Assembly (NCBI GenBank): GCA_016930835.1
Contig: JAFGGA010000079.1
Span: 1-33,684, forward strand
Direction of reading: 5' to 3'
DNA length: 33,684 nucleotides
Origin: Deltaproteobacteria bacterium
Lineage (GTDB): Bacteria; Desulfobacterota; DSM-4660; Desulfatiglandales; HGW-15
Shown here in pieces: positions 149 to 6,542 of the stretch. The position numbers and the translations under genes were made by a program. The notes under the pieces are model-generated. The model made no database searches. It saw only the letters and a list, made by a program, of their open reading frames with translations, and had not been told where the DNA came from. The stretch's first letter is position 1. Every line of letters starts with the position of its first letter.

Positions 149-2621
149 TTAAAAAGGGAGTATGCGCCTTGTATTGGAATATTTCTCGGAATTAATTATT
201 GTTTGTGTTTTAGATATTAGTCTCCTCACTTTTGTTGATAGTGCTTCCATATTGAACAGTTTTTGAATAAAGCCATCACAACCCATCCCTGATAAGTCTG
301 CTGCTTTACCATTTAACCCATGTCCATTGGCAAGAAGGTCCTTCATTCTAAGGGCCGTCTTTTTCAAATCGCTAAAGGGCATGTTAGGCATGATCATATC
401 TTATATCATCAGTTTATGGGCCTTTGCTGAGCGATTTGAATCTGAAAGACGATTAAAAATTTCTTTTCCACTGTTGGCCGTTAAAATATTAAATCCCAAT
501 TGTCTGAGCAATTTCCCTCAAACATCAATGATATCGTTATTAACATCCGCCAATAAAATAACTTACGAACCCTTAAAACGATTTGGCTTACTATTGGTCA
601 GTACTCGATGTAGCAAATTTTCCTTTAAAGGAAGATAAATATTAAAAGTCGTTCCCTTATGCTTTTTACAATAAACATTAACGATGCCGTTATGGTTTTT
701 AATTATCCAATAAACAGCTGCAAGCCCTAAGCCCATTCCTTGTCCCATTTTTTTGTTGTAAAAAATGGATCGAAAATCCGAATCTGCGTTTGTTTGTCCA
801 TACCGATACCTGTATCTGTTATGGAGATCCTCACGTAGTAACCACATACCAAACCAAACGGCTTTGCATAATCTTCATTAAATTTTACAATATCAGTGCT
901 TGCGTAAAGATCTCCCCCCTTCGGCATCGCCTGCCAGGCATTTACGCAGACATTGAGTAAGGCTTGCTCGATTTGCCTTTTGTCCACATCTACCGTAATA
1001 TCATCTTGAGAATAATTTTCGTGAATTGCAATGTTTTCCTTTTCGGAACGAAATTGTTCTAGTGTACTTGAAATAATTTGGTTGATTTTATTTGGCCGGA
1101 CTAAATAGTTTCCCCTCTGTGTGAAACCGAATAGTTTTTCAGAAATGGCTGCCCCATTGTTGATAAGACGCTCGATTTCTTTTAATCTATTGTAGTGTGG
1201 ACTATCATGACACACATCAATTAACATTAACGAGGTATTCCCTTGAATACCCATTAGTAGGTTATTGAGGTCGTTGGAAATTCCTCCTATTAATGTATGG
1301 ATGGCTTCCATCTTATGAGCCTGTAAAAGCTGATCCTCCAGCACCCTCTGTCTTGTCAGATCCCTAGCAAAATTCAATACAGCGGGTTTTCCTTCCCAAT
1401 TAATCACAACTGCATTACTTCGGATCAATACCTCATCGCCTTCTTTATTCAGCATACGACACGAATAGTGGCAAGAACCCTTGTTTTCAATTACATCTTT
1501 ATCCAGACTTTCAATTACCTCAACCTTATCATCATAATGAATAAGATTTTCAAAGGGAGTACTTAATATCTCCTGTTGAGAATAGCCTAACAGGGCGAGT
1601 GTATTCGGATTAGCAAAGGCAATGAAACGATCTCGAATAATAAAAATGGCCTCATTCGCATTGTTGACCAACAGCCGATATTTTTCCTCAGATTCTTTTA
1701 ATGCCCTTACGACACGTTTGTGAATGGAAAAAAGCAAGGCATTTTCAATGGCTAGGGCAGCAGAATTAGTCAATGCTGAAAAGAAAAAAGATCGTCTCTC
1801 CTAAAACCATAAAGTGTTTTTATGGAGTGGACATAAACAACATCCAATATTTTCGATTTGCTAATCAAAGGAACACACATGATCGATTTGACATGCATCA
1901 TTTCAATACTTTCAGAGAGATTCTCCTGTTTCTCTTGACGCGTATCAGCCATCATGATGGCTTTCCCTTCTTGAATGACCCTATGGACGATGGTTCTACT
2001 GTATTTTACAGAAGCCGGTTTTTTATCGCCTCTTCTGCGAGATATTATTTCTTGGAGTTCTCCGCTTTCATTGTTAACTAATAAAATGGCACCGCTGTCA
2101 ATCCTGCTGAGTGATAAAAACAGGGAGTCGAAAATTTTTTCACAAATCTCCTCTACATCAAAAGATTGCATTAACAACATCGAAATTTCGTAGATAAGCT
2201 CTAATTTTTTGTGGTCGGTGATATATCTATTTCCAAGGGCGGGACTTTTTGCAAACTTCCCAGAACCCAGTAGATCGATAGCACACTGAATAACCAGGCC
2301 ATCTTCAATATCTTTTTTCCCGATATTGAAATACACTCGCCCGACAGCAACGGGTACCCCTTCATCTATTTCATGTGGTGATCCTGGATCGATGGCTGAT
2401 CCGTTGATTCAGATGCCGTTTTGACTGTGTAAATCTTCAATAAAATATTTGTCGTCTTTAATCGTTATCCTGGCGTGCTTGCGTGAGATGGAGGGGTCTT
2501 TTAACTGGATGGAATTGCCGGAATCTCTACCTAACGATATGTCAGGGCTATTCAGATCAAAAAATTGACCCGCCATAGGTCCATTCAAAACATAGAGTTT
2601 TTTCATGATTGATCCGTCCAT
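149..2621 (-). pseudogene. Decayed FHA-GAF-PAS hybrid histidine kinase
   Basis: Read from 2621 downward, the translated pieces give one multidomain sensor kinase in order: an FHA domain (2621-2340, with GRDSGNSIQ, SRKHARI and HSQNG motifs), a GAF domain (about 2240-1790), a PAS domain (about 1700-1400), a HisKA/HATPase_c kinase core (about 1330-640) and a receiver domain (about 560-200, with DMIMPNM and a GCDGFIQK stretch). The frame is broken by an in-frame TGA at 2409-2411, a frameshift near 1775-1790 in a T-rich run, a second near 750-760 in an A7 run, and in-frame stops at 563-565, 518-520 and 401-403. The usual H-box GGIAHDFNN reads GGISNDLNN, so the phospho-accepting histidine is Asn. 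An intact ancestor would have sensed a signal by GAF/PAS and phosphorylated its own receiver. The start could be the ATG at 2621 or at 2606. The many lesions argue against sequencing error, since neighbouring genes are intact. Confidence 0.85.
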
Positions 2622-2810
2622 GATAATTACTCTTTCGCTTCAAGATGAACAGTGAAATTTGTGGTTTTTATAAGCCTTAAAAAGAGATCGTAACGATAAA
2701 CAAATTTGCTACTGGGGGCATTGATATTGAGACATTTTTATTGTCGGTCTTTTAAACAGAATTTGCGCAAGCATTGTCAACCTTCTATGTCACTCACAGG
2801 GAGCTCTTTC

Positions 2811-3665: not shown

Positions 3666-4841
3666 TTAATGTACCTGGCAGGCGATTTTCGTTGTCATGG
3701 ATACGCATGAGCCCACATTTTCGACAAGATTTTTAAATGTCGGGGTCAAGTGATCATATTCTCTCTTAATGTTATCTTTATTAATCTTATCAACTTTAAC
3801 ATCTTTTGATGCAATGACCGCGGTATATTGTGGATCATGTCCCATATCAATAAAAGGGACTGAACCAAAAACGTCGTTTCTATTTAGTGTGGCCAACGGT
3901 AAATACCCTTTTGGGGTTTGCCCAACAACATATATTTCGCCCGCGGTAATTAGGAAAAGATCGTCTACGGATTTTTCTTTGTTTAAAAGCATCTTTTTGT
4001 CCTTCATTAGGGCAGCGGCATTTTCCTTGATTTCTCTCATGGATAATCCAACGGAACTATCATTCAATTTGTTTAGCCGACCACAAAGGCTCAATAAAAG
4101 CTTTTTAAAATCCGTGGACAAACAAGAATATTCGCCTGCAAGTTGCTGGATGTCTAAAAGTCCCAAATGAACATCCCCTACTGCCGTTGCGGTAGCCGTT
4201 CTTGCGTATTCACGAAAGACAAGGGATGCAATCGTACCAATAAAACAGCCTTCGCCAATCCTCGCAACCGGCAAAGGACCTTTTGGTGTTTCTCGACTGA
4301 CCTCGACCAACCCACTGAGTATTACCCATATCCAGTTCCCGTAATGACCTTCCTTGACAATCCGTTCTCCATTTCGAAATAAATTTTCTTCGATAATATA
4401 AGTATAATCAATTTGTGGGCCCTTAACTACACTAAGACCTCCCTTTTTATTGTTGCTTGACATGGCCTTTCCTTTACCAGGCTGCTTATCGCCTCCGGAT
4501 CCTATTCTTTTAATTTTCCCTTCATCCACCATTCTCATAGCATCCATGACGATTTGCATTCGGCTGTGCTTGACGACTTGCTCAACCTGAATCGGTTTTT
4601 CAAGAAATTCATACTTTCCATCGTTCCACCCGAACAACGAATAAATAGCATTTAGTCCTCGAAGATGACCACTGATTGCATTTATGGGATTACCATCCTT
4701 GAAAAAAATTTGACCTCGGTTCGGCAAATAATCATTGGTAAGCTGTAACACCCCAGTGTTCCGATTATTACCGAGCATTTGAAATATGTCTGCCAAACCC
4801 ATAAACTCCAAATATCCTGAAAATACTATCTTGCCGTTCAT
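3666..4841 (-). CDS. DUF4388 (PATAN) protein with two cNMP-binding-like domains
   Basis: This 391-residue protein has an N-terminal PATAN/DUF4388 domain (about residues 1-100, with the typical LADIFQMLGNNRNTGVLQL and GQIFFKDGNPINA segments). A polar linker of about 45 residues rich in Gly, Lys and Ser follows, then two cyclic-nucleotide-binding-like beta-barrels (about 150-260 and 265-380). The first keeps a phosphate-cassette-like stretch, GEGCFIG then YARTATATA, including the Arg-Thr that normally holds the cyclic phosphate. In the second the equivalent reads PQYTAVIA, so binding is probably lost. PATAN domains occur in bacterial signalling proteins, often beside two-component systems. There is no signal peptide or membrane segment, so it is probably cytosolic. 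A strong GGAGGT lies 5 bases before the ATG. It starts 10 bases after the MglA-like GTPase gene and is the last gene of the operon, so it may be a target of or partner for the GTPase. Its ligand is unknown. Confidence 0.85.
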   Translation of the reverse strand: MNGKIVFSGYLEFMGLADIFQMLGNNRNTGVLQLTNDYLPNRGQIFFKDGNPINAISGHLRGLNAIYSLFGWNDGKYEFLEKPIQVEQVVKHSRMQIVMDAMRMVDEGKIKRIGSGGDKQPGKGKAMSSNNKKGGLSVVKGPQIDYTYIIEENLFRNGERIVKEGHYGNWIWVILSGLVEVSRETPKGPLPVARIGEGCFIGTIASLVFREYARTATATAVGDVHLGLLDIQQLAGEYSCLSTDFKKLLLSLCGRLNKLNDSSVGLSMREIKENAAALMKDKKMLLNKEKSVDDLFLITAGEIYVVGQTPKGYLPLATLNRNDVFGSVPFIDMGHDPQYTAVIASKDVKVDKINKDNIKREYDHLTPTFKNLVENVGSCVSMTTKIACQVH

Positions 4842-4851
4842 GGTTAACCTC

Positions 4852-5466
4852 CTAGTTTGCCCATCTCAATTCGTGTTGCAGATGTCGCAACGTAAGTTTT
4901 AGGGATTTTTTCAAGGTATCGCTAACGCCATTTCCTTTTAAGGCGCTTGCGGTATAAAAAGGGACCTTTAGTTTATTATTCAGATACGACTCCATCTCAG
5001 AGACTTGCATTATAGGAATGCCATTTTCAGAAAGATCTCTTTTGTTGTACTGAAAGACGAGTGGGATGTTGAAAAGATCCATATTTTGTTCAGCGAGATT
5101 TTCTTGGAGATCCTTTAAGGAGCTAAGGTTTTCGTTTTTTCGAATCTGGAGTGAATCTGCAACAAAAACGATCCCATCGACACCTTTGAGAACCATCTTT
5201 CTTGTAGAACGATACTTTGATTGCCCTGGAACAGTAAAAAGTTGGACTTTTACATCACATCCCATAATCCTACCAATCCCCATAGGGAGGAAATCAAAGT
5301 ACAGTGTTCGATCTCCTTTTGTATTAATAGATATCATATCAGTAGTTGCGTAACTTCTGCCTGCCCTGAAAATATATTCCAAATTTGTGGTTTTTCCGCA
5401 CATTCCGGGACCATAATAAACAATTTTGCATTCAATAACTTTATCTTTTTGATTAAAAAACGCCAT
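4852..5466 (-). CDS. MglA-like small Ras-family GTPase
   Basis: This 204-residue protein carries a full set of GTPase motifs: the P-loop GPGMCGKTT (residues 19-27), the G3 motif TVPGQ (78-82) in place of the eukaryotic DxxG, NKRD (141-144) for guanine specificity, and SAL (174-176). The switch region GDRTLYFDFLP is typical of the bacterial MglA/ARF-like group. MglA proteins are polarity switches in Myxococcus and are normally turned off by the roadblock protein MglB. No MglB/roadblock gene is visible in this window. Its operon partners are a TPR-like gene 25 bases upstream and the PATAN/cNMP-binding gene 10 bases downstream, which suggests a GTPase-controlled signalling or localisation role. 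Whether it affects motility or polarity here cannot be told from sequence. Confidence 0.92.
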   Translation of the reverse strand: MAFFNQKDKVIECKIVYYGPGMCGKTTNLEYIFRAGRSYATTDMISINTKGDRTLYFDFLPMGIGRIMGCDVKVQLFTVPGQSKYRSTRKMVLKGVDGIVFVADSLQIRKNENLSSLKDLQENLAEQNMDLFNIPLVFQYNKRDLSENGIPIMQVSEMESYLNNKLKVPFYTASALKGNGVSDTLKKSLKLTLRHLQHELRWAN

Positions 5467-5491
5467 GAATTTTTGTGACCTTTCTTACCGG

Positions 5492-6403
5492 TTAATTTGC
5501 CTTTATTTTAATGTCCAACACATAATCCCCTTTTTTGGGACCGATTTTTATTTCTGTCTTTTCCGCAACAATCCCATTCCCTTCAAATACGGCCCTTGGC
5601 GTGTAAAATTTTATCTTCGGCAAGGACATGCCTAGATGGAATCGATCAAGTAGTGTTTTTTTCTCAGAAGGGATTACGACACTCACGGTGTCATTTGATT
5701 GAAACGTAACATCGAAATCGATCTCATAAAGGCCTTCACTATGATCATCGACTTGGATCTTGAGTGAATAAATATCCAGAGCCAACCGCTGTTCTCCCCT
5801 AGTTCTATTTTTCTTCCTCGGAGTATGATCCAATTGAGGAAGCGATGTCTCAATCCCTTTATCCCTTAAGACTGTCTCAAGAAAGGACTGCGCGTCCAGA
5901 AGATCGTCTTGGGTTAACAGGCCGTTGGCAACCCATTGATTAAATTGTGAGATTGCAGCTTCTGAAGATGATAAAGCCAAATGACATTCCAAGATGTGTT
6001 TTGCGACCACGCCAGGGGCAACCCCCTTCCCCAGTAATCGATGGAATTCCACCAAAGCTTGTTCATGTTGACCAAATTTCGCCAGGGCTAATACACCTTC
6101 CACTTCCGCCATTTCTTTTGTTTGTGAGAAAGAAAAAACCTTCTGTATTAAATTTTGTACATCATGGGATAGTGTTGGTGTTTCATCAATCTTTTCAAAA
6201 TCAGCGATATCTTCTTCTATTTTTTCAATCCTCACATTAACGGTTTTTATCAATTTTTTATAGGTATCAGATGACCGATTATCATCCGTCATATAGTGAA
6301 GAACCGATAAGTATTTTTCCTTTGATTCTTCCAAAAGTCCCTGAGATTGATAAACCTCTGCTTCATTGATCAATGTCTGTAATTGAAAATCTTCAAGCAA
6401 CAT
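5492..6403 (-). CDS. TPR-like protein with beta-rich (PilZ-like?) C-terminal domain
   Basis: The N-terminal two thirds (about residues 1-185) are helical and contain TPR-like repeats, for example LINEAEVYQSQGLLEESKEKYLSVL and VLALAKFGQHEQALVEFHRLL. A basic linker (RKKNRTRGEQR) leads to about 95 residues of predicted beta strands that may be a divergent PilZ-like barrel, although the canonical RxxxR c-di-GMP motif is not evident. I chose the ATG at 6403 (303 residues) because GGAGGT lies 4 bases before it. An in-frame ATG at 6421 would add six residues with a poorer ribosome site. It is the first gene of the operon with the GTPase and PATAN genes, directly behind a sigma-54-type promoter at 6448-6463. 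The function is not recognised; a scaffold for the GTPase is a reasonable guess. Confidence 0.75.
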   Translation of the reverse strand: MLLEDFQLQTLINEAEVYQSQGLLEESKEKYLSVLHYMTDDNRSSDTYKKLIKTVNVRIEKIEEDIADFEKIDETPTLSHDVQNLIQKVFSFSQTKEMAEVEGVLALAKFGQHEQALVEFHRLLGKGVAPGVVAKHILECHLALSSSEAAISQFNQWVANGLLTQDDLLDAQSFLETVLRDKGIETSLPQLDHTPRKKNRTRGEQRLALDIYSLKIQVDDHSEGLYEIDFDVTFQSNDTVSVVIPSEKKTLLDRFHLGMSLPKIKFYTPRAVFEGNGIVAEKTEIKIGPKKGDYVLDIKIKAN

Positions 6404-6447
6404 GTTGACCTCCGGTTCCATACATTTTTTGCCTTACTTCTTCCTTA

Positions 6448-6463
6448 AGCAAAGGGTGTGCCG
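6448..6463 (-). promoter_or_regulatory. Sigma-54 (-24/-12) promoter for the GTPase operon
   Basis: On the minus strand the sequence reads CGGCACACCCTTTGCT, which matches the sigma-54 consensus TGGCAC-N5-TTGCW at every position but the first. The invariant GG (6462-6461) and GC (6450-6449) have the required 10-base separation. Transcription would start near 6437, leaving about 34 bases before the preferred ATG at 6403. A sigma-54 activator gene lies divergently on the other side of the same intergenic region. Confidence 0.8.
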
Positions 6464-6542
6464 AAAAGATCTTTTAGAAAAGTTAATCCTAACACCTTGA
6501 TTTAATGTGGAAAATAGGCTCCTTGCTTTTTCTTTTTTATAA

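Follow-up and report, generated by a model that had tools for sequence, protein, structure and literature searches.

An MglB-less three-gene MglA module conserved in sulfate-reducing bacteria and its possible coupling to a PilB-type pilus motor

MglA is the best-studied Ras-like switch of bacteria, and its cycle has so far been explained through MglB, its Roadblock GAP. A clade of MglA proteins that look catalytically competent, lack MglB and keep other fixed partners raises the question of what turns MglA off and by what route it acts on the pilus motor. The locus studied here lies within a window of 33,684 nucleotides (the whole stretch of DNA analysed) from a deltaproteobacterial metagenome-assembled genome of 4.70 Mb, with 224 contigs and a completeness of 95.5%. 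The first-pass annotation had read the locus as a small-GTPase circuit whose regulator and effector are a TPR/beta-domain protein and a PATAN protein with two cNMP-binding domains, possibly integrating cyclic nucleotides.

The trio operon and its GTPase

The features considered here are as follows.

5492-6421, minus strand: TPR-PilZ-fold protein, 309 aa
4852-5466, minus strand: orphan Group 1 MglA-type small GTPase, 204 aa, with G21, R53, Q82 and a C-terminal W202
3666-4841, minus strand: PATAN-CNBD2 protein, a PATAN domain and two cyclic-nucleotide-binding domains (CNBDs), 391 aa
6639-8159, plus strand: GAF-sigma54-activator-HTH protein, 506 aa, divergent from the operon
6448-6464, minus strand: putative sigma54-type -24/-12-like site, TCGGCACACCCTTTGCT, GG-N10-GC with two mismatches, just upstream of the TPR gene

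All three trio genes were confirmed on the minus strand and are as tightly packed as first described; the TPR gene is transcribed first, followed by the GTPase gene and the PATAN-CNBD2 gene, with intergenic gaps of 25 and 10 bases. The TPR gene starts at 6421, and position 6403 is its second in-frame ATG. The GTPase gene is single-copy in the source genome.

The GTPase was aligned with Myxococcus xanthus MglA (E=6e-56) and matched the Ras and Arf families of Pfam. Group 1 MglA proteins are defined by a P-loop GxxxxGK[T/S], an Arg finger adjacent to the Thr of G2, a TVPGQ G3 motif and a [NT]KxD G4 motif (Wuichet and Sogaard-Andersen 2014). The trio GTPase carries GPGMCGKT within GPGxxGKTT, R53-T54, TVPGQ and NKRD; the set of nucleotide motifs is thus complete, as had been noted, and the protein is a Group 1 MglA by its motifs. 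In a tree confined to MglA-type proteins, it was nested among MglB-coupled MglAs, in a clade that we call clade A. Clade A retains R53 in 48/52 sequences, Q82 in 50/52, G21 in 49/52 and both F57 and F59 in 52/52. Since R53, Q82 and G21 are kept, the trio GTPase looks catalytically competent from its sequence. The clade is marked by S87, present in 52/52 sequences where sister-clade proteins mostly have Ala, by E12, and by an extended C-terminus bearing W202 (40/52 versus 1/58). We would guess that W202 belongs to a docking tail.

Conservation of the trio and absence of MglB

Gene neighbourhoods were scored with profiles of the three trio proteins and of MglB in 80 named loci and approximately 60 loci of relatives. 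Among the 51 clade-A loci, the TPR gene immediately precedes the GTPase gene in 36 of the 45 with enough upstream DNA, and the PATAN-CNBD2 gene immediately follows it in 42 of the 48 with enough downstream DNA. A Roadblock gene adjoins the GTPase gene in 0/51 clade-A loci, whereas MglB does so in 51/56 sister-clade loci. The orphan MglAs group into one clade in a quick tree (SH-aLRT 96) and again in a more careful one (UFBoot 99, SH-aLRT 96), and neither the MglB-coupled clade nor the outgroups fall inside it. The one apparent clade-A exception (L151) arises from labelling by score cut-off and not from the tree. At the level of whole genomes, full-length PATAN-CNBD2 was present in 28/28 clade-A genomes versus 9/57 others among 85 genomes of the class (Fisher p=5e-15, uncorrected for shared ancestry), where a clade-A GTPase was called at a profile score of at least 338.

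The carriers include the cultured Desulfosarcina cetonica JCM 12296 and records labelled Desulfosudis oleivorans, Desulfoluna sp. and Olavius algarvensis endosymbiont. The flanks of the trio vary, with fatty-acid genes at some loci and the sigma54 activator at others, indicating that the unit is not merely carried along by general synteny. Synteny in dozens of genomes with differing flanks also argues against chance. We therefore have very little doubt that the trio is a conserved MglA module that lacks MglB. The GTPase gene is not always in place, however: six genomes (G002, G003, G009, G010, G049 and G058) have a TPR-PATAN-CNBD2 pair without the GTPase on a separate contig, four of these pairs lying beside the activator gene, and encode a clade-A MglA elsewhere. 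Pairs without a GTPase gene between them, in genomes with the trio GTPase elsewhere, are found at L003, L107, L108, L109, L110 and L111. Because of these cases, the GTPase may serve two pairs, or a pair may work alone and have a function of its own.

We searched the entire source genome for a Roadblock protein with three profiles: PF03259, a 14-sequence profile built from the MglBs of related loci and a profile of a divergent Roadblock-like protein. None gave a match in the source genome; PF03259 is the one with a positive control in relatives (Roadblock genes above cut-off in 18/61 genomes), the other two having no in-search control. The absence of a Roadblock partner, first remarked for the window, was thus borne out and extends to the whole genome. 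Since the trio is a conserved unit and no MglB was found in this genome, neither of the two contrary results named beforehand (failure of the three genes to co-occur outside this genome, or an MglB homologue acting on the GTPase from elsewhere in it) was obtained.

In relatives that have MglB, the gene usually adjoins a second MglA paralogue and not the trio MglA; in Desulfoluna (L136), the trio GTPase lies approximately 3.5 kb from such an MglB-MglA pair. MglB appears to have been lost across a branch of sulfate reducers (Desulfobacterales), and the simplest reading is that coupling was lost once, in the ancestor of the clade. Roadblock or Roadblock-like proteins of other kinds were also seen in the surveyed loci. 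Positions 447-842 of L124 (G007:C787) encode an orphan Roadblock protein of another type, with no MglA on the same contig. A second Roadblock-like protein, recognised by eye and invisible to Pfam, lies beside REC-PATAN in MglB-linked clusters (L089, 13112-13504; L102, 14992-15345).

The trio shares R53, TVPGQ, Q82 and the beta2 Phe residues with the Group 1 MglA-MglB systems of M. xanthus and Thermus. It differs from them in that no MglB or other Roadblock gene lies nearby or was detected in the genome, in its two fixed other partners and in S87, E12 and W202. Bdellovibrio bacteriovorus MglA likewise has no MglB; it interacts with the TPR protein Bd2492 and affects pili (PMC3983030). However, that MglA has S21, and its TPR gene lies in the tamAB operon and not beside mglA, whereas the trio GTPase has G21 and shares one operon with the PilZ-fold and PATAN-CNBD2 proteins.

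Partner proteins and the possible output of the switch

The TPR region of the first partner (residues 3-187) comprises approximately four helical TPR-like hairpins with nine helices. The window's protein has no Pfam match itself, but 16/18 members of its family match TPR_2. Its AlphaFold model (mean pLDDT 80.7, pTM 0.57) shows the helical hairpins followed by a six-stranded barrel. The beta domain of the first description is thus present and could be refined: the modelled barrel (residues 214-309) has a PilZ fold, with its best match to MrkH (Z 9.5, rmsd 2.7 over 86 residues) and further structural matches to the PilZ domains of Alg44, PP4397 and YcgR. Across 50 PilZ domains of trio-family proteins, RxxxR and the Asn and Gly of the second motif, [D/N]xSxxG, are lost; an RGEQR in the window's protein is missing in homologues and does not align with RxxxR. 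A classical c-di-GMP reading of the trio PilZ domain was rejected because of the loss of these two motifs. A homologous TPR-PilZ protein in two MglB-linked clusters (L089 and L098) has RxxxR and NxSxxG intact. Further genes of the MglB-linked clusters (L089, 8619-10987) specify a winged-helix-like protein and a membrane sensor with zinc-ribbon, Cache and HAMP domains, a possible signal input.

The second partner begins with a PATAN domain (DUF4388, PF14332; residues 8-108, E=7.6e-20, 71.6 bits against a gathering cut-off of 25). The cNMP_binding family matched two stretches (E=3.2e-19), which correspond to CNBDs at approximately 142-270 and 280-391. The mean pLDDT of its AlphaFold model was 82.9.

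A candidate output emerged from the TPR part. The TPR profile weakly matched (approximately 20-58 bits) the N-termini of TPR-MshEN-T2SSE proteins of approximately 770-830 residues encoded near MglA. The gene for such a protein follows MglA on the same strand within approximately 50 bases at L097, L103 and L106 and is divergent from MglA at L088 and L093, suggesting that switch and motor are physically linked. The ATPase halves of these proteins resemble PilB/GspE but score below the PilB equivalog cut-off, and the driven machine could therefore be another T4P/T2S-type system. Such ATPases beside or near MglA were also seen at L095, L099 and others, and some of these loci have no MglB. At L169 (7545-9032), TPR, MshEN and PilZ are joined in one chain, a possible intermediate between the TPR-PilZ and TPR-PilB-like proteins.

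The source genome has no TPR-PilB protein matching the trio TPR. Its nearest counterpart of these ATPases is a GAF-MshEN-T2SSE protein (L217, G000:C96; 48-54% identity, versus approximately 45% or less for its other ATPases), in which a GAF-like N-terminus replaces the TPR. The same ATPase subfamily, likewise with a GAF-like N-terminus in place of the TPR, is encoded at L155 (151-2487). The source genome also encodes a T4aP PilB above the curated cut-off (L213).

Published systems link each type of trio component to the pilus motor. SgmX of M. xanthus also consists of TPRs; it has been proposed to act, downstream of MglA, on the motor that extends pili (PMC7519303, PMC11580455), and it links MglA to PilB (PMC11580455). 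However, SgmX is described as having 14 TPRs with MglA-binding C-terminal TPRs, whereas the trio protein has approximately four hairpins and a PilZ fold and is not of the SgmX type. In Synechocystis, the PATAN response regulators PixG and PixE bind PilB1/PilC (PMC12288463); the trio PATAN domain differs in being fused to two CNBDs. PilZ of Xanthomonas, known from the PilZ-PilB-FimX system, binds the N-domain of PilB (PMC8389850); it is a stand-alone protein, whereas the trio PilZ fold is fused to TPRs, and a partnership with PilB would hold by analogy. Our literature search found no paper joining MglA with DUF4388 by that name, and nothing on Desulfo- organisms, MglA and PilZ together. Orphan MglAs were reported earlier (59 of 449), as were PATAN genes near Group 1 and Group 5 MglAs (Wuichet and Sogaard-Andersen 2014). 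The partners had been called unusual; their fixed pairing stands, but earlier papers had already described orphan MglAs, PATAN genes in the vicinity of MglA and TPR proteins as MglA effectors.

We favour, with a probability of about 60%, a model in which a catalytically competent MglA without MglB drives a PilB-type pilus motor through a TPR-PilZ-fold adaptor and a PATAN scaffold, under control of the sigma54 activator. In this model, the GTPase, an MglA switch of the polarity type that has lost its Roadblock GAP, probably still cycles between GTP and GDP. The GTP-bound form would engage the TPR part of the co-encoded adaptor, by analogy with MglA and SgmX in Myxococcus. The PilZ-fold and PATAN domains would couple the switch to the PilB-type extension ATPase, and MglA may thereby set where or when type IV pili extend. 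Direct binding of the TPR-PilZ-fold protein to MglA, the pilus output and the sigma54 control are points that we infer. The idea that the partners act as effectors gained from the PilZ fold and from the TPR part common to MglA-linked PilB-like ATPases, which give the partners the look of effectors or adaptors serving a pilus motor. TPRs are common and their homology to the PilB-like proteins is weak here, yet the matches occupy the same position close to MglA, and we regard an output on a PilB-type motor as probable.

We also considered that PATAN-CNBD2 or the TPR-PilZ-fold protein serves as a non-Roadblock GAP (or GEF) for the trio MglA in place of MglB. The beta2 Phe residues and hydrophobic surface contact MglB in M. 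xanthus MglA (PMC6785124). Clade A keeps this surface together with R53, Q82 and G21, the last of which is S21 in the MglB-less Bdellovibrio protein; some protein may therefore still act on the MglB surface of MglA, and the two partners are its constant companions. However, the kept residues could serve intrinsic hydrolysis, pairs without a GTPase in cis exist, and a fold search, which barely covered the PATAN domain, revealed nothing Roadblock-like in either partner. We consider such a role of the partners unlikely. That the clade actually replaced its Roadblock GAP by one of these co-encoded regulators, tied to pilus motor control, is rather unlikely; if true, it would represent a new type of bacterial small-GTPase activating or exchange factor.

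Similarly doubtful is control of a non-pilus output, such as secretion or polar exopolysaccharide, in which case the TPR homology would reflect only a common repeat. No pilus genes were recognised in the trio loci themselves, fatty-acid genes lie beside some of them and the TPR homology to the ATPases is weak, all of which would fit this alternative. It is opposed by the independent published T4P motor links of TPR, PilZ-fold, PATAN and MglA proteins and by the TPR-PilB-like genes that adjoin MglA in several genomes.

Integration of cAMP or cGMP through the first CNBD appears quite improbable. In the phosphate-binding cassette (PBC) of a CNBD, Glu contacts the ribose and Arg the phosphate. CNBD1 keeps Arg214 in 30/30 homologues, its model resembles the CNBDs of PKG, CRP and Bd1971 (Z approximately 13) and the source genome has six class III cyclase genes, implying that cNMP may exist. 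However, the PBC Glu is found in 0/30 homologues, mostly replaced by Ser or Thr, and CNBD2 has neither Glu nor Arg. Classical cAMP sensing is therefore unlikely, and the motifs of the two CNBDs do not support, in its classical form, the cyclic-nucleotide integration suggested at first.

The last alternative, that the genes are co-transcribed but functionally unrelated neighbours and that MglB was missed in an incomplete metagenome-assembled genome of many contigs, can be dismissed as highly improbable, given that synteny extends over 51 loci whose flanks differ, that the MglB-free proteins form a single supported clade and that co-occurrence is strong at the genome level.

Regulation and surroundings of the operon

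The divergent GAF-sigma54 activator has orthologues of 72-82% identity at the same position in several relatives, and it is likely the transcriptional regulator of the trio operon. Sites resembling the one at 6448-6464, with one to three mismatches, precede the TPR gene in the activator loci L003, L071, L109, L110, L111 and L121 and in only a minority of the others. A scan of the whole window yielded 16 sigma54 sites against 18.9 expected, which is the chance level; the putative site is suggestive of sigma54 control, taking its weight from position and from recurrence in activator loci only. No RNA families were found in the window. Elsewhere in the window, a sensor kinase gene (563-2624, minus strand; FHA-GAF-PAS-HATPase) is interrupted: a TGA falls in frame within its FHA domain, and the reading frame breaks again near 1773 and 730-850, indicating either a pseudogene or assembly errors.
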